Below are positions 2,604 to 10,894 of a stretch of DNA of 24,065 bases, one piece after another. The translations under genes and the position numbers were made by a program. Origin of the DNA: a virus; IMG/VR virus record IMGVR_UViG_3300044615_000248, positions 1 to 24,065 of that record. One strand, given 5' to 3'. The stretch's first letter is position 1. Every line of letters starts with the position of its first letter. The notes under the pieces are model-generated. The model was not told the origin of the DNA and did not search any database. It saw only the letters and a list, made by a program, of their open reading frames with translations.

Positions 2604-2782
2604 AGCCAACCAACCCGAAGGAGATCAACCCATGCCCCGTCCCGCTGCACAACCGAAAGTCCCCGGCGAAGTCGCCCAGCCTGAAGCCAACCAACCCGAA
2701 GGAGATCAACCCATGCCCCGTCCCGCTGCACAACCGAAAGTCCCCGGCGAAGTCGCCCAGCCTGAAGCCAACCAACCCGAAG
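2601..2782 (+). repeat. 81-bp tandem duplication carrying an RBS and start codon
   Basis: Two copies with an 81-bp period (2601-2681 and 2682-2762) appear identical by eye. They are followed by a third partial copy of 20 bp at 2763-2782 (TGAAGCCAACCAACCCGAAG). Each full unit contains the stop triplet TGA of the upstream gene, an AAGGAG RBS and an ATG (2632 and 2713). The period is 27 codons, so the duplicated segment is read in frame within the following gene. The 20-bp element at both borders suggests unequal recombination or slippage between pre-existing short direct repeats. Confidence 0.95.
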
Positions 2783-3042
2783 CCGTTGTCGATCAGCCGG
2801 CCGCTGCTGCCGACGAGCAGGTGAGCGTTTCGAAGGCATCGCTCGATGCGTTGCTGGCCCGCGTTGCTGCGCTGGAAGCTGCGCCGTCGCAAGCCGCTCG
2901 CAAGGTCGCCAACCCGACCGCAAACCTGCCCGATGCCGATTCGCTCGACGTTGCCACCCTGAAGAATCCGGTGCTGACCAAGCAAGGCTGGCTGGTCCCC
3001 GAGACCTACGGCAGCAACCCGAACGCACCGAAGGCGCTCTGA
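2632..3042 (+). CDS. Hypothetical portal-upstream protein with duplicated N-terminus
   Basis: A 136-residue protein. The first 27 residues (beginning MPRPAAQPKVPGEVA) are repeated as residues 28-54 because of the 81-bp duplication, so both M1 (2632) and M28 (2713) have an identical AAGGAG RBS 8 nt upstream. A Pro/Ala/Gln-rich region is followed by a short coiled-coil-like helix (SLDALLARVAALEA, about 66-80). A conserved-looking tail follows, with NPVLTKQGWLVPETYG, which suggests a small folded or binding segment. Its position just before the portal suggests a minor morphogenesis role; the family is not recognised. Without the duplication the protein would be about 109 residues. Confidence 0.7.
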   Translation: MPRPAAQPKVPGEVAQPEANQPEGDQPMPRPAAQPKVPGEVAQPEANQPEAVVDQPAAAADEQVSVSKASLDALLARVAALEAAPSQAARKVANPTANLPDADSLDVATLKNPVLTKQGWLVPETYGSNPNAPKAL

Positions 3043-4837: not shown

Positions 4838-7800
4838 ATGGCAACAGTCCATTCGCTGATCTGCTTCGGTGGCCTGAACGGCAAGACCGTCACGTTCACA
4901 GATGCCGGTGATATCGTCAATCTGACGGCACATGGCCTGCGCAATGGCTCGGCGGTGTTCTTCGAAACAACCGGCTCGCTGCCAACGGGGATATCAGCCA
5001 GCACGCTCTACTATGCTCGCCAGGGCGCAGACGTCAATAAATTCACCCTGCACACGTCGGCAGCAGGGGCCATCGCCAATACAGGCCAAGTCACATTCAC
5101 CAGCACAGGCAGTGGCACGCACACCGTCAAGTCGTCGCTGATATTCACCGGGGCCGATCTTTCCAGATACGACAGCACGCGGGTTTATGAAGGCCTTGGC
5201 TCGTGGAACACCAATCGCGCCGGGGCTGGTCAGTTCGATATCGAGGTTGCGGAGATTGGCGAAGCATTCACGGAAACTGTGTCTGCTCAGTTGCAGATCA
5301 CAATCCAGAGTGCGCAGAATCTGATTGTTTCCAAGGTGAATGACATTCGGTCGGCGGCTTGGCACAACGGGAATCACCCGGAAGGCGCCGTTCTGAGCCT
5401 CTCGCTGGACGCCGGGTACGTCTTGTTCGCTTCGGCTGGTGTTGGTGGTGCCGCCATGATCAAGCTGGCACGATACCGCGACACCATCGACGGCATCACG
5501 GTCATGAACACCTCGGGTGGCTCGGTCGGCTATGGCGTCGACCTGGACGTTCTCTGCACGCTGCGGAACTCGTTCATCTATTGCACTCGGACGCTGGCAA
5601 CCGGCGTCAATCTGCGATCAGCCTTCGCCAAGGCTGAAAACAACGTCTTCAACGGGTGGAATACGGGAGCAGCAGCAGGTTCTTCGCAGTCCGGCATCGT
5701 GTTCCAGAACAACATTGTCACGAAATGCAACAACGGTTTCTCGGCGGCATCGACAGTCAAGGGGTTCTGGTACAACAATATTTCAGTCGGCAATACAACC
5801 AATTGGCCGACTCAGCCGACCGCGCTTGAGGGTGCCAGTAACAACGCAGGGCTGACAGGCGAGGCGTGGGTTACTGGCTCAGGATCGCGGATCACCATCG
5901 CAACAACCGACTTCGCCGACTACGCGAACAACGATTTTTACCCGGCTAGCGCATCATCGCCACAGGTTGAAGCGGGTGTGACCCCGTATGGCTATGTCAC
6001 CGATGACGTTGCAGACCGCTTCCGCCCTGACTACATGAATGGCGGTGCTGCTGTGGTCGATGTTGGGCCGTTCGAATTCGATCATGGATACGGCCCATGG
6101 CCATCCACTGACGAGCGCGGCATCGCTTTCACTGGCCTGCTGTCCGGGTCGAAGGTCAAGGTTTTCGAGACTGGCACCGACACCGAGAAATTCAGCACCG
6201 CAAGCTCCGGCACGTCGGAGACTTGGAGCGAGGCAGTATCCGGTTCGATCACTGTCGATTACACGATCCAGAAAGCCGGATACCTGCCGATCCGCGTGAC
6301 TGGAATCACGGTGACAGCCGGGCCTTCAGGCGTGCAGCCGATCCCCGTGTCGCAGGTTGTCGCCCGTTGGTATCAGGCGTCTTCAGGCTTGACGATCAAC
6401 AGCAACTGCTACGCCAACGCCACGACTAAGAAATGGGGATTGACCACAACCTCGACGCTTCAGAACCTCGCCTCGTATCTGCTTGAACAGTGGATTGCGC
6501 TCGGGGATTCTGGCGAGGCGTTCGCCAATAAGGCATATCCCATTGAGGCCAATGGCCCGAATAGTTTTACCTGGCTCGACGGCTGGGAAGCCGACCTGAC
6601 GACCTACGCCGATTCGATCACCAACCTTTCCCGCGACGGCATGCGCTACCTGTCGTCTGCTGGCGCGGTCACTGCCTCATGGGCTGCGCTGTTGTCCGGT
6701 GGTGTTCCGGCTGGCAAAACTGTCCGCTACCAACAAACCGATGGCGGAACGCAGTCGAACGCCGAGAACACCGGCAATATCGACCAACTGATCCAGATTT
6801 ACGGCGATGCGACGCACGGCAACTTCGACCGTACCGGCTGGCTTGTGCTCAAGTTGCAGAGCGATGGTTACGACCAATCCGAGGCCGATGCTGTCGCTAC
6901 CTACGGCACGCTTGAGGATCAACTGTACGTGGTCGGCTTGACCCCGACTGCCAACGGCATCGCAGCAGGAACAGTCACTGGCATCACGATCACCGATCAT
7001 GGCGCATCGCCGGTGACGTGGAACAGCAAGGTTTTCTCGATCACCATCACCGATACCGGCAGTCATTCCGGCGAAGAGATCGTGCAGTACGTGCGCGGCC
7101 TGAACAGCTTCAACTATCACGACCTGGTTCAGACCAACGGCACCGAGTTCAAGACGGTGCGCGGGGTTGTCTATGGCGATACCGGCGCAACGCTGAAGGG
7201 CGTTCGCGTGGTGCAGTCGGATGGCACAACGTCGCATGCCGACTTCAACTTGCACACCGCCGACGATGGAACGACCTACGTCCCGCCGCTTCCTCCTGCT
7301 GCTGCTGAAGCAACGGTGCTGGCAGATTCACGAGTTCAGCTTTACAACGTGACGACCGATACCGAGATCGACAACGTGTTCGTCACTGGCACCAGCTACA
7401 GCTACGTCATCACGACCGAAGCCAGCGACGGCGACACGCTGCGGCTGCGGGCTTGCAAGCTTGGCCGCGAGGAAGCGCAGGCCTTCGCGGTATGGGGTGC
7501 TGCTGGCGCAACGTTCTTGATCGACCAGCCGGCCAGTGCAGAATATGCAACATGGGGCATCGATGGCTCGACAGTGACCGAATTCACCCTGGATGTGACC
7601 GGCACGGTCGAGATTGACGCCGATGATGCGGACGGCGCGACGACCAAGACCCGGTTGGGGGCATGGTACTCGCACGTCCTGACGACCGAAGACGGCATCC
7701 GCAATGCGTTCGGCGCCGTGTCCTATGTCTCGTCGGCGGCAATCCGGGTGAATGTCGATGTGGCCGACGTGCTGCTCGAAAACATCAACCCGACCACGGC

Positions 7801-8191
7801 GTTACGCTTCACCGATCTGAGTGTTCGACTGTATCGCTCGGACGGTTCCAGCATCATCGCTCCGACCTCGTACAGCATCCACAACGACTATTCCGGCGTT
7901 CCGGATGTGGTCGAAACCGGCGTGTCTGGATTGACCGGAGCCGAGTCGGCGCAACTGATGGGGCTGCCGAGTTCGACAACTACAGCCGCTGCCGTCTGGT
8001 CGCATGATGACGGCCATTTCGTGGCGCGGGCCAATCGCAACAAGATGATCACTGATCCGGTATCTGGCACGGCCACGCTCTACGAAGACGATGGCACCAC
8101 CGTACTGGCGCAGGGCCAGCTCTACGAAGACGCCGCAGGCCTGCAAACCTACCGCGGCAAGGGCGCCGAGCGCCGGGAGCGCCTGGCATGA
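4838..8191 (+). CDS. Large fibre-like / beta-helix virion structural protein
   Basis: A 1117-residue protein. Residues about 10-92 form a small beta domain of the kind repeated in phage tail proteins (VNLTAHGLRNGSAVFF, then LYYARQG). Residues about 110-420 are Asn/Gly-rich with spaced NN motifs (FQNNIVTKCNNGF, WYNNISVGNT), consistent with a right-handed beta-helix. Beta-sandwich-like segments follow (about 427-500 and 776-815). The C-terminal 200 residues include LRFTDLSVRLYRSDGS and IHNDYSGVPDVVE, then ANRNKMITDP, typical of fibre-end regions. The role is inferred as receptor binding or tail appendage. Unusually it lies between portal and scaffold. The RBS is poor, and its ATG is 3 nt after the portal stop, so coupling is likely. 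Confidence 0.7.
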   Translation: MATVHSLICFGGLNGKTVTFTDAGDIVNLTAHGLRNGSAVFFETTGSLPTGISASTLYYARQGADVNKFTLHTSAAGAIANTGQVTFTSTGSGTHTVKSSLIFTGADLSRYDSTRVYEGLGSWNTNRAGAGQFDIEVAEIGEAFTETVSAQLQITIQSAQNLIVSKVNDIRSAAWHNGNHPEGAVLSLSLDAGYVLFASAGVGGAAMIKLARYRDTIDGITVMNTSGGSVGYGVDLDVLCTLRNSFIYCTRTLATGVNLRSAFAKAENNVFNGWNTGAAAGSSQSGIVFQNNIVTKCNNGFSAASTVKGFWYNNISVGNTTNWPTQPTALEGASNNAGLTGEAWVTGSGSRITIATTDFADYANNDFYPASASSPQVEAGVTPYGYVTDDVADRFRPDYMNGGAAVVDVGPFEFDHGYGPWPSTDERGIAFTGLLSGSKVKVFETGTDTEKFSTASSGTSETWSEAVSGSITVDYTIQKAGYLPIRVTGITVTAGPSGVQPIPVSQVVARWYQASSGLTINSNCYANATTKKWGLTTTSTLQNLASYLLEQWIALGDSGEAFANKAYPIEANGPNSFTWLDGWEADLTTYADSITNLSRDGMRYLSSAGAVTASWAALLSGGVPAGKTVRYQQTDGGTQSNAENTGNIDQLIQIYGDATHGNFDRTGWLVLKLQSDGYDQSEADAVATYGTLEDQLYVVGLTPTANGIAAGTVTGITITDHGASPVTWNSKVFSITITDTGSHSGEEIVQYVRGLNSFNYHDLVQTNGTEFKTVRGVVYGDTGATLKGVRVVQSDGTTSHADFNLHTADDGTTYVPPLPPAAAEATVLADSRVQLYNVTTDTEIDNVFVTGTSYSYVITTEASDGDTLRLRACKLGREEAQAFAVWGAAGATFLIDQPASAEYATWGIDGSTVTEFTLDVTGTVEIDADDADGATTKTRLGAWYSHVLTTEDGIRNAFGAVSYVSSAAIRVNVDVADVLLENINPTTALRFTDLSVRLYRSDGSSIIAPTSYSIHNDYSGVPDVVETGVSGLTGAESAQLMGLPSSTTTAAAVWSHDDGHFVARANRNKMITDPVSGTATLYEDDGTTVLAQGQLYEDAAGLQTYRGKGAERRERLA

Positions 8192-8502
8192 GCATCGTCC
8201 TGCACGGCCTTGGCGTTGGCGAGATCGACAGCGGTTCGTCGATTGTCGCCTTCGGATTGGCCAGGGATCTGGACGAGGGCGAGACCGTCGAGCAGGCCGT
8301 CGCTTCGACCGGGATCGAAAACCTCTTTGTGGTGGATTTTGGGGGCGGCCAGCGTCAGGCCAATGCCGCCGAGTTCCGCCGCTTCAAGCGCATGGTCGCC
8401 GCAATGCAGCTCGGCAGCCTGCAATTCCGCGAACGCAAGGGCAAGAAGGGCGGCATCGAATACTGGGCCGTCCGTGACCCGATGATCAAGAAGGCCGCAT
8501 GA
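8188..8502 (+). CDS. Small hypothetical protein downstream of the fibre gene
   Basis: A 104-residue protein beginning MSIVLHGLGVGEIDSG. It starts in an ATGA overlap with the fibre gene and ends in an ATGA overlap with the Bbp19-like gene. A GGGAG RBS-like run lies about 7 nt before the ATG. It has an early beta-strand region and a charged C-terminal half (AEFRRFKRMVAAMQLG, then RERKGKKGGIEYW). No catalytic or binding motif is recognised. Its strict coupling between fibre and head genes suggests a virion-assembly accessory, for instance a chaperone of the fibre; that is only inference. Confidence 0.6.
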   Translation: MSIVLHGLGVGEIDSGSSIVAFGLARDLDEGETVEQAVASTGIENLFVVDFGGGQRQANAAEFRRFKRMVAAMQLGSLQFRERKGKKGGIEYWAVRDPMIKKAA

Positions 8503-8741
8503 ACCAAGACCAACGACCGACCGCCCAGGACTACGCCGACCTGTTCGAAGTCGACAAGCGCGGGCAGCGCATCCTCGATGACTTGATCCGCCGCTTCGTT
8601 CGCCCGCCGGTCAGCGTTGGCGGCATCGATGCCGTACTGCAGACCTATGACCGGGCAGGCCAGCGCAAGCCGCTGGATTTCATCATGCAGCAGATCAACC
8701 GGGCCAACGGTGCGCCCGATGACAACCAAGAAGGAGATTGA
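8499..8741 (+). CDS. Bbp19-like small phage head-region protein
   Basis: An 80-residue protein with TAQDYADLFEVDKRGQRIL near the N-terminus, then RRFVRPP, then an internal GGIDAVLQTYDRAGQRK and a closing helix (FIMQQINRANGA). This arrangement matches the small protein family named for Bbp19 of Bordetella phage BPP-1, which is encoded just before the scaffold and capsid. Its function is not established. Start overlaps the previous stop (ATGA). An AAGGAG near its end serves as the RBS of the downstream scaffold gene. The family assignment rests on my recognition of the sequence pattern and location. Confidence 0.65.
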   Translation: MNQDQRPTAQDYADLFEVDKRGQRILDDLIRRFVRPPVSVGGIDAVLQTYDRAGQRKPLDFIMQQINRANGAPDDNQEGD

Positions 8742-8744
8742 CCC

Positions 8745-9668
8745 ATGAACCAATTTTGGAGGCTCTTTTATGTTCGGATGGCTGAAGCGGATGCTGGCGA
8801 AGGTGGCGGGGCGGGGGGCGGTACAGCAGGATCGGAGAATTCCGGAACTGTTGCAGGTAATAGCCAAAGCCAAGCCGGGGCAGGCGGTACTGGTGACGCA
8901 CAGGGAAATGGCGCTGCTCAATCTGCTTCAGTCCTCGCCAACGCAGGCGGCGAAGGCCAGCAAAGCCAAGCCGTGGCGATCCCCGAAAAATACCAAGTCA
9001 AGAAAGAAGACGGCACGGTCGACATCGAAGCCAGTAGCCTGAAGCTGGCCGAGGCCTACGGTCATCTTGAAAAGCGGCTCGGCTCTGGCGATGCACCGCC
9101 GAAGACCCCGGAGGAATACCAGATCATCGTACCGGACGCGCTGAAGGATGCGCTCGACCCGAAGACCGACCCGCTGCTCGGTGCCTTCCTCAAGGATGCC
9201 CACGCCGCCGGACTGTCGCAGAAGCAAGTTGACCTGGTCATGGGAAAATACTTCGATCTGGCGCCCAAGCTGATTGAAGGCTCGCGGCAGTTGTCCGAAG
9301 CGGAATGCATCGCTGACCTGAAGAACGAATGGAAGGACGACGCGACGTTCAAGGCCGAAGTCGGCAAGGCCTACAAGGCCGTGCAGGCCTACGGCGACAA
9401 GGACGCCCAAGCCATCCTCGCCGAGTACGGCAACGACCCGCGCGTGATCCGCTTGATGGCCCGCGTTGGTGCCGAGCTTGGCGAGGACCGATCGATCAAC
9501 CCGGGCGGCACGCTGCCTGGCGGCCAGAGCGTCGAAAGCCTGATGCAGTCTGAGGCCTACACCAATCCGAAGCATGCCGACCATGCCCGCGTCAGCGCCC
9601 AGGTGCAGGGCTACTTCAACAAGCAAGCCGAGGCACAGGCCAAGGCAGGGAACGTGCCGATTCTCTGA
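8745..9668 (+). CDS. Capsid scaffolding protein
   Basis: A 307-residue protein immediately before the capsid gene. The first ~75 residues are Gly/Ala/Gln-rich and low complexity (AGEGGGAGG-like). A charged helical body follows, with IPEKYQVKKEDG, then TPEEYQIIVPDALKDAL and LSQKQVDLVMGKYFDLAPK, the usual composition of podoviral scaffolds. Scaffolds line the procapsid and are lost on maturation. The start at 8745 has AAGGAG 9 nt upstream; the in-frame ATG at 8778 (MAEADAGEGG) looks more like a scaffold N-terminus but lacks its own well-spaced RBS. The low-complexity segment overlaps a second open frame with a better codon signature (see 8770-9042). Stop precedes an intrinsic terminator. Confidence 0.82.
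   Translation: MNQFWRLFYVRMAEADAGEGGGAGGGTAGSENSGTVAGNSQSQAGAGGTGDAQGNGAAQSASVLANAGGEGQQSQAVAIPEKYQVKKEDGTVDIEASSLKLAEAYGHLEKRLGSGDAPPKTPEEYQIIVPDALKDALDPKTDPLLGAFLKDAHAAGLSQKQVDLVMGKYFDLAPKLIEGSRQLSEAECIADLKNEWKDDATFKAEVGKAYKAVQAYGDKDAQAILAEYGNDPRVIRLMARVGAELGEDRSINPGGTLPGGQSVESLMQSEAYTNPKHADHARVSAQVQGYFNKQAEAQAKAGNVPIL
8770..9042 (+). CDS. Candidate overlapping gene inside the scaffold N-terminus (+1 frame)
   Basis: A 90-codon frame with ATG at 8770 and an excellent RBS (GGAGG at 8758-8762, 7 nt spacing). The product begins MFGWLKRMLAKVAGRG and continues RRIPELLQVIAKAKPGQ, then VLVTHREMALLNLLQ. It has ordinary composition with amphipathic helices, unlike the Gly/Ala-rich scaffold segment read from the same DNA. 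By hand count, 46 of its first 60 third positions are G or C (77%), against 26 of 60 (43%) for the scaffold frame from 8778. A window-typical bias is strong GC3, so this frame looks like the older or more constrained one. The last ~30 residues are basic and low-complexity and probably of little value. Function is unknown; translation is not proven. Confidence 0.55.
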   Translation: MFGWLKRMLAKVAGRGAVQQDRRIPELLQVIAKAKPGQAVLVTHREMALLNLLQSSPTQAAKASKAKPWRSPKNTKSRKKTARSTSKPVA

Positions 9669-9722: not shown

Positions 9723-9907
9723 CTTTGGTCGGGAAACCGTCCGCACCCCAGTTCGACAATCTGCGCCATCACAGGCCCGGCGTGGCAGCCGGATACCCTG
9801 AATTCCCGCAGGTCTGAATGCAAGCCGATTCCGACACCGTAGCAGGCCCGGATGACCGGACACCCTGAAGGCTGATTACTGAATTCAACCTTTTGGAGAT
9901 TCCGAAA
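9723..9907 (+). promoter_or_regulatory. Leader region upstream of the major capsid gene
   Basis: About 185 bp without a convincing gene between a terminator and the capsid RBS. As a terminator precedes it and a very abundant protein follows, a promoter is expected here, but I see no good sigma-70 -35/-10 pair. The region carries related segments: CAGGCCCGG at 9772-9780 and 9843-9851, each followed by CCGGA-x-ACCCTGAA (from 9789 and 9856), plus GAATTC at 9800-9805 and 9881-9886. A 16-codon frame (ATG 9818 to TGA 9866-9868) has only a weak RBS. The capsid RBS GGAG is at 9895-9898. Confidence 0.45.
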
Positions 9908-10894
9908 ATGAAAGACTACCTCAGCAGTAACCGATTCAACCTCATGCTTGTTGCCGCGCTGGTAATTGGCACGTCGTTTGGCATCCTTCCGGCCGAAGCC
10001 ATGGCCGGCGCCTCCGTCATGTTCGTTGGCTCGACTTCCATCACCGCAGCATTCGTGCAGCAGTGGGATACCTCGATCCGCCTGCAAGCGCAGCAATCCG
10101 AATCTCGTCTGATGAAGGCCGTTACTGATCGCGGCACTATTTCCGGCGACGGCTTCACCATCAACAACCTGGCCGCCGTCGAAATGGACGAAAACACCGT
10201 CCGTCACGGCGATACCGAGTGGGGCGATGCCGATCACACCAATCGCCTGGCCTCCATGAAGGACTTTTACAAGGCCCTTCCGCTCGACCGCAACGACATC
10301 CCGAAAATGCTGGTCAATCCGGTAACCGGTGGCGACTACATGCGCACGCTGATGAACGCCAAGAACCGCAAGATCGACAAGCTGATTTACAACGCCATGC
10401 GCGGCGCGATCACCAGCAAGGACGGCGTTACCAGCTACACCATCCCGGCCGGCCAGAAGATTGCCCACGGTTCCACCGGTTTGACCAAGGCCAAGCTGAT
10501 CCAGGCCCGCGCCATGTTCCGCGCCAACGAGTGCGACGAAGAGGCCGGCGAAGAGTTGTACATCATGTACAACGACAAGGTGGTGCAGACCATTTTGGCC
10601 GATACCACGCTGACCAGCGCCGACTACATGGCGGTTGGAATGCTGCAATCCGGTCGCCTTCAGGGGTCTTGGATGGGCTTCAACTGGATTCCGTATCAGG
10701 GCCTGGACTTCATTTCCAGCACCTATTACGCCATGGCCTGGGCCAAGTCCGGCGTCCATTTCGGCAAGGGTTACGAAGAAGGCAAGGTCTCTCCGCGCCC
10801 GGACAAAAAGGACACGTGGCAGGTGTCGATGGCCGCCTCCTACGGGGCCGGTCGCCAGGCCGAAGAGAAGATCATCGAGATCGCATTCCAGTAA
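9908..10894 (+). CDS. Major capsid protein (BPP-1-like) with N-terminal hydrophobic extension
   Basis: A 328-residue protein at the expected place between scaffold and cement. The core from about residue 45 (SITAAFVQQWDTSIRLQAQQ), then RHGDTEWGDADHTNR and GRLQGSWMGFNWIPY, is the pattern of major capsid proteins in BPP-1-type podoviruses, a family known to have an HK97-like fold with rearranged topology. The ATG at 9908 has GGAG 9 nt upstream; a TTG at 9893 lies before this RBS and is rejected. Before the core is an unusual extension: charged MKDYLSSNRF, hydrophobic residues 11-28, then AEAMAGAS, closely resembling a signal peptide with a cleavage site after A33. It may be removed, buried or act in assembly. 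Confidence 0.87.
   Translation: MKDYLSSNRFNLMLVAALVIGTSFGILPAEAMAGASVMFVGSTSITAAFVQQWDTSIRLQAQQSESRLMKAVTDRGTISGDGFTINNLAAVEMDENTVRHGDTEWGDADHTNRLASMKDFYKALPLDRNDIPKMLVNPVTGGDYMRTLMNAKNRKIDKLIYNAMRGAITSKDGVTSYTIPAGQKIAHGSTGLTKAKLIQARAMFRANECDEEAGEELYIMYNDKVVQTILADTTLTSADYMAVGMLQSGRLQGSWMGFNWIPYQGLDFISSTYYAMAWAKSGVHFGKGYEEGKVSPRPDKKDTWQVSMAASYGAGRQAEEKIIEIAFQ

Follow-up and report, generated by a model that had tools for sequence, protein, structure and literature searches.

The 5′ end of the scaffold gene in the window (the whole 24,065-nt stretch of viral DNA analyzed here) contains a second start codon, ATG2, that opens a 90-residue frame in the +1 register, and both ATG2 and the SD-like stretch before it (SD2) are conserved among diverged relatives, as are residues 1-16 of the +1 frame, which are constrained at the amino-acid level. 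Judged from these patterns, the overlapping starts probably yield two products, the scaffold and a small basic protein whose N-terminal helix is conserved. The features concerned are as follows.

8499..8741, + strand: gene for a Bbp19-like phage protein, upstream of the scaffold (PF25181, phrog_5977)
8731..8736, + strand: SD1, AAGGAG, 8 nt before the scaffold start
8745..9668, + strand: scaffold / capsid assembly gene, 307 aa, with ATG1 at 8745 (phrog_3742, E 7e-53; phrog_458)
8758..8762, + strand: SD2, GGAGG, 7 nt before ATG2; codes for Trp-Arg in the scaffold
8770..8772, + strand: ATG2, start codon of the +1 ORF
8770..9042, + strand: +1 ORF, 90 aa, basic, starting MFGWLKRMLAK
8770..8817, + strand: +1 codons 1-16, MFGWLKRMLAKVAGRG, the constrained part and predicted N-terminal helix
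8778..8780, + strand: ATG3, in-frame Met 12 of the scaffold (MAEADAGEG), from sequence and alignment
8982..9042, + strand: last part of the +1 ORF, whose residues shadow the conserved motif PEKYQVKKEDGTVDIEASS of the scaffold
9893..10894, + strand: major capsid protein gene (PF19821, phrog_3437)

The window, a podovirus-like contig, contains a BPP-1-like head module and shares with BPP-1-like podoviruses both the family matches and the order of the head genes (PF25181, scaffold, PF19821). As in those phages, the scaffold belongs to phrog_3742 and phrog_458 and directly precedes the major capsid gene; its match to Pfam Phage_T7_Capsid is sub-threshold. The scaffold's SD sits in the end of the Bbp19-like gene, and an SD1-like SD also precedes ATG1 in most relatives. 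The phage records examined annotate no nested gene, however, and the YeP5 scaffold is without an equivalent start. We note elsewhere in the window a 1117-aa protein (4838-8191) that matches no PHROG and is encoded between the portal and the head genes, a 104-aa ORF (8188-8502) directly upstream of the Bbp19-like gene with no PHROG or Pfam match, and an ORF (2632-3042) that carries an in-frame repeat (PRPAAQPKVPGEVAQPEANQPEG) close to its N-terminus.

The initial annotation was right that a 90-residue +1 ORF beginning MFGWLKRMLAK stands behind GGAGG at 7 nt, and that the scaffold has a low-complexity N-terminal part, residues about 13-75 being rich in Gly, Ala, Gln and Ser. There is thus an open frame with its own start and ribosome site inside another gene, and ATG2 is unique among the 155 out-of-frame ATGs in the window's sense genes in combining GGAGG, good spacing and an ORF of at least 50 aa. 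The ribosome site of the +1 frame, which had been called the better one, is not clearly better than the scaffold's own, since the anti-SD duplex energy is -9.3 kcal/mol for SD2 versus -8.8 kcal/mol for the scaffold SD, which pairs 6 bases. The description of the small protein as ordinary-looking fails for most of its length: it has 20 K+R versus 3 D+E, and in an AlphaFold2 model (pTM 0.19) residues 3-18 form a helix, the first ten residues have a pLDDT of 83 and the rest is not confident.

The higher GC3 of the +1 frame had also been put forward as a sign of a gene. Although the counts themselves hold (46/60 in the +1 frame, 25/60 in the scaffold frame), we reject them as gene evidence because the contrast is an arithmetic identity: every +1 codon ends on the base with which a scaffold codon begins, which makes GC3 of the +1 frame equal to GC1 of the scaffold (46/60 for both), and codons for Gly, Ala, Glu, Asp and Val all start with G. 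The low GC3 of the scaffold is, moreover, family-wide, and in scaffolds without the +1 start the linker is likewise low, at 0.54 versus 0.80 in the body among mixed relatives and 0.46 versus 0.66 in YeP5-type scaffolds. ORF length and openness were rejected as evidence too. Synonymous resampling of the scaffold yields equally long +1 ORFs (P 0.51 for the window), with long +1 frames arising in half of the resamplings because Gly and Ala codons cannot spell +1 stops; by this measure the new frame is no longer than chance. Openness and GC3 contrasts are therefore poor evidence for overlapping genes in Gly/Ala-rich DNA.

Conservation of the start provides a different kind of evidence. Scans of IMG/VR yielded 148 distinct scaffold genes, and comparisons were centered on 15 diverged window-type representatives with a median shared-residue codon identity of 0.49 in the scaffold body; L211, L214, L215, L219 and L220, which were found only through a DNA pattern derived from the +1 start, were excluded from tests and are illustrative. 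ATG2 is kept in all 15 of the unbiased window-type representatives, versus 4.4 expected from each gene's codon use (joint P 5e-10 if lineages are independent): the Tyr, His or Asn codon that contains it always ends in T, whereas C-ending codons for these three residues dominate the genes. Counting the control-clade scaffolds with the same residues, the start is present in 15 of 20, being absent from L014, L092, L175, L054 and L089. The start is thus kept beyond what the scaffold frame needs. Upstream of ATG2, at 5-10 nt, nearly all diverged relatives have an SD-like stretch (weakest in L039) that is stronger than in synonymous resamplings of the scaffold (Fisher P 1e-5), with the signal individually clear in only a few (L016, L005, L006 and L041); the Arg codon at SD2 is AGG or AGA in 10/16 cases versus 10/125 in gene bodies. 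We note that GRLGH-type scaffolds (L014, L067-L097) have a different +1 ATG, formed by His-Gly CAT GGC and lacking an SD, in 14/14 members, and that the ORF it opens is short or broken in L071, L083, L088 and L097.

Constraint extends from the start into the first residues of the +1 protein. Within the gene, synonymous variation in the scaffold frame reaches its minimum over the 15 codons that follow ATG2 (ratio 0.62), versus a ratio of 1.27 at the same place in the GRLGH control clade, where there is no suppression, and 1.05-1.28 in the middle of the overlap, where variation is not reduced. Indeed, the window shows no scaffold-synonymous change in these 15 codons when compared with L005, L006 and L012, phages that differ at 23-45% of shared-residue codons in the upstream gene and have scaffold bodies just as diverged. 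Local recombination was rejected as the source of this N-terminal identity: in L006, L007, L010 and L012 the upstream gene and the scaffold body have diverged to about the same extent, so that a large recombined block is not the cause there, though it could be in L005.

Prolines, too, are missing from the start of the +1 protein. Residues 1-16 contain none in 11 lineages, versus 17.5 expected, and residues 9-24 contain 4 versus 23.5, while three scaffold sets without the start have 24/33.6, 5/7.4 and 22/29.8 (0.68-0.74 of expectation). Part of this avoidance is unspecific, because third positions low in C near the gene start are general in the scaffold family; with six lineage clusters and an expectation scaled to the controls, the zero-proline result has a P of about 0.001. 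These tests treat lineages as independent although they are related, so that the P values are optimistic. Identity among +1 residues 3-16 is higher than in all 400 resamplings, and the window-type N-terminus follows the amphipathic pattern MF[GSAT]W[LM][KR][RQ]xxAKVA. The hydrophobic moment of residues 1-16 is 0.35 versus 0.22, a signal that comes from the window-type phages and is individually weak or absent in L036, L166, L098 and L100. In L039 the scaffold reads HVELLEA where others read HVFMAEA, and the +1 frame still gives MLNFWKQVLER, beside MFSWLKQVMER in L220. In L166/L220-type phages the +1 frame runs for about 50 residues with no proline, and the helix may be longer there.

Beyond the N-terminal 16-24 residues, to which amino-acid-level constraint is confined, the +1 protein appears to follow the scaffold. 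Pairwise substitution simulations of the middle and C-terminal parts in window-type phages found no +1 constraint from about residue 25, so that constraint does not run across the whole new frame, and the +1 C-terminus, RNTKSRKKTARSTSKP, is the shadow of the scaffold motif PEKYQVKKEDGTVDIEASS (PEKYQVKKEDG). Conserved RNA structure was considered and rejected (two consensus pairs, none compensatory, in a region less structured than shuffles, z +2.1), as was a return by frameshifting from +1 to the scaffold frame, there being no conserved slippery run on reading the sequences. Between the window (8823-8940) and L002 (3079-3192) the Gly/Ala linker differs almost wholly while the rest of the gene is about 97% identical, which points to a linker that was replaced locally or turns over very quickly; in L215 (108-1074) the N-terminal third of the scaffold resembles L220 and L211 and the body is strongly diverged, with a recombination breakpoint about 30 codons beyond the +1 stop.

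That the small gene is real, as was first proposed, therefore draws its support from the conserved start, the SD-like stretch and the first 16-24 residues, and not from the arguments originally offered for it. We infer that translation can start at two overlapping sites at the 5′ end of the scaffold gene, separated by 25 nt and read in different frames, with SD1/ATG1 (8731/8745) initiating the scaffold and SD2/ATG2 (8758/8770) initiating the small, strongly basic +1 protein. Because SD1-ATG1 and SD2-ATG2 share one ribosome footprint (13-34 nt apart among the relatives), the starts would be expected to compete, a 30S subunit on one site covering the other, and such competition would couple the level of the small protein to the scaffold level. 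The parts under selection would be the start site and a proline-free N-terminal helix of about 16-24 residues; the remaining residues, being the +1 reading of the Gly/Ala linker and the PEKYQVKKEDG motif, would be tolerated and not selected. While the head is being assembled, the helix might act at a membrane or engage a protein or nucleic acid.

Several other readings deserve consideration. SD2-ATG2 could be a regulatory out-of-frame start that diverts or positions ribosomes and thereby tunes scaffold synthesis, the peptide itself having no function. This would suit the fact that the initiation signals are the best conserved element and the protein body is not, and that L030, L041 and L039 retain SD2-ATG2 with other peptides (L030 and L041 have ATG2 without MFxW). 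In L034 (1502-1516), SD2-ATG2 is kept in front of the sequence ATG TTT TAA TGG, which encodes MF-stop; the stop overlaps the scaffold ATG3, a layout that looks like a termination-reinitiation arrangement and whose geometry suits reinitiation. The loss of the product with retention of the start keeps the regulatory reading alive. We nevertheless regard it as unlikely, since proline avoidance and residue conservation to codon 16 exceed the needs of a start site, and the third bases at codons 0-4 (T, T, C, -, T) do not reflect simple AT-richness. It could also be supposed that the +1 ORF is only a shadow, ATG2 and SD2 arising incidentally from the N-terminal residues of the scaffold, its AT-rich early codons and its purine-rich Arg, Lys and Gly codons. 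The chance-like length and openness of the frame and the family-wide low GC3 would be expected in that case, and control clades share both the GCT GAA that commonly follows ATG3 and some avoidance of Pro. However, ATG2 in 15/15 representatives, a C-ending codon 2 inside the same T-ending run, and no proline where controls have about 70% of expectation make a pure shadow distinctly unlikely. Alternatively, SD2 might serve ATG3 (8778), whose product would be a second, shorter scaffold isoform that lacks the basic N-terminal peptide, and ATG2 would be incidental. ATG3 is present in nearly all window-type relatives and always 8 nt from ATG2, so that variation in spacing cannot separate the two, but SD2 lies 15 nt from ATG3, beyond the usual range, and 5-10 nt from ATG2, and the fixed T that creates ATG2 would be left unexplained; we consider such an isoform very improbable.

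The initial annotation had further suggested that the small gene is perhaps the older of the two, the scaffold having been extended back across it. Scaffolds without the +1 ORF contradict this, as they have a comparable N-terminus: in those of the MWKLKHLFMNADAG (YeP5-type), MNWFIHGRLGHFFMAEAGEGGD and MKLKRFPFLNAEPG kinds, which have no such +1 start, a short basic/hydrophobic N-terminus occupies the same position. In these clades the start is missing from the +1 frame or, in some members, the frame is broken, and no stand-alone small gene was found, which partly matches the outcome that the initial annotation had itself named as speaking against its proposal. As no point in favor of an older small gene survives, the GC3 argument being an identity, we find this order of events scarcely credible. 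The scaffold N-terminus is presumably older than the small gene and, given its wider spread, it is most likely that the +1 frame arose by overprinting of a scaffold gene already present, and not the reverse. In a quick scaffold tree that leaves many branches without support, and with possession of ATG2 and an SD assigned by a loose automatic rule, this state is clustered yet requires several changes (8 counted versus a shuffled mean of 20).

Phage records, 35 pattern hits and the records of seven relatives yielded no stand-alone homologue of the small protein; family libraries gave no significant match for it and solved structures no convincing one, and genome_contigs gave one weak scaffold relative. 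Overlapping phage genes are a known kind, and this member is a new one among the records searched. In phiX174, the lysis gene E is nested in the external scaffolding gene D, and its product, which blocks cell-wall synthesis, has a transmembrane segment at its N-terminus. Like E, the candidate described here would be a protein of some 90 aa whose shifted frame lies entirely within a phage scaffolding gene and has a start of its own. In contrast to E, it has a short basic helix and no convincing membrane span: on reading the sequence, MFGWLKRMLAKVAGRGAVQQDRR, with K6, R7, K11 and R15, shows no E-like N-terminal transmembrane segment. D and the window scaffold are unrelated. Overprinted viral genes (PMC8227390, PMC3744397) likewise place a new frame over an older gene, although in the window only the start and the first 16-24 residues are constrained; the out-of-frame initiation described in E. 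coli, at overlapping start codons in AUGUG and GUGUG (PMC9841429), likewise involves two close overlapping start sites in different frames, whereas window-type phages have separate SDs and starts 13-34 nt apart. The open-access text available contained no published report of the scaffold/+1 overlap.

It is possible, if somewhat short of probable, that these phages represent a widespread unannotated class in which small basic helical proteins are overprinted on the scaffold N-termini of podovirus-like phages behind a second, competing ribosome site, with only the first 16-24 residues selected (up to about 50 in L166/L220-type phages) and the rest borrowed from the linker. If translated, the +1 frame would encode an unannotated protein common to diverged phages, one that gene callers would have missed because it is nested inside another gene. 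It would also be an overprinted gene in which only the start and one helix are selected and the tail comes free from the linker of the host gene, and as such would bear on how nested genes begin.
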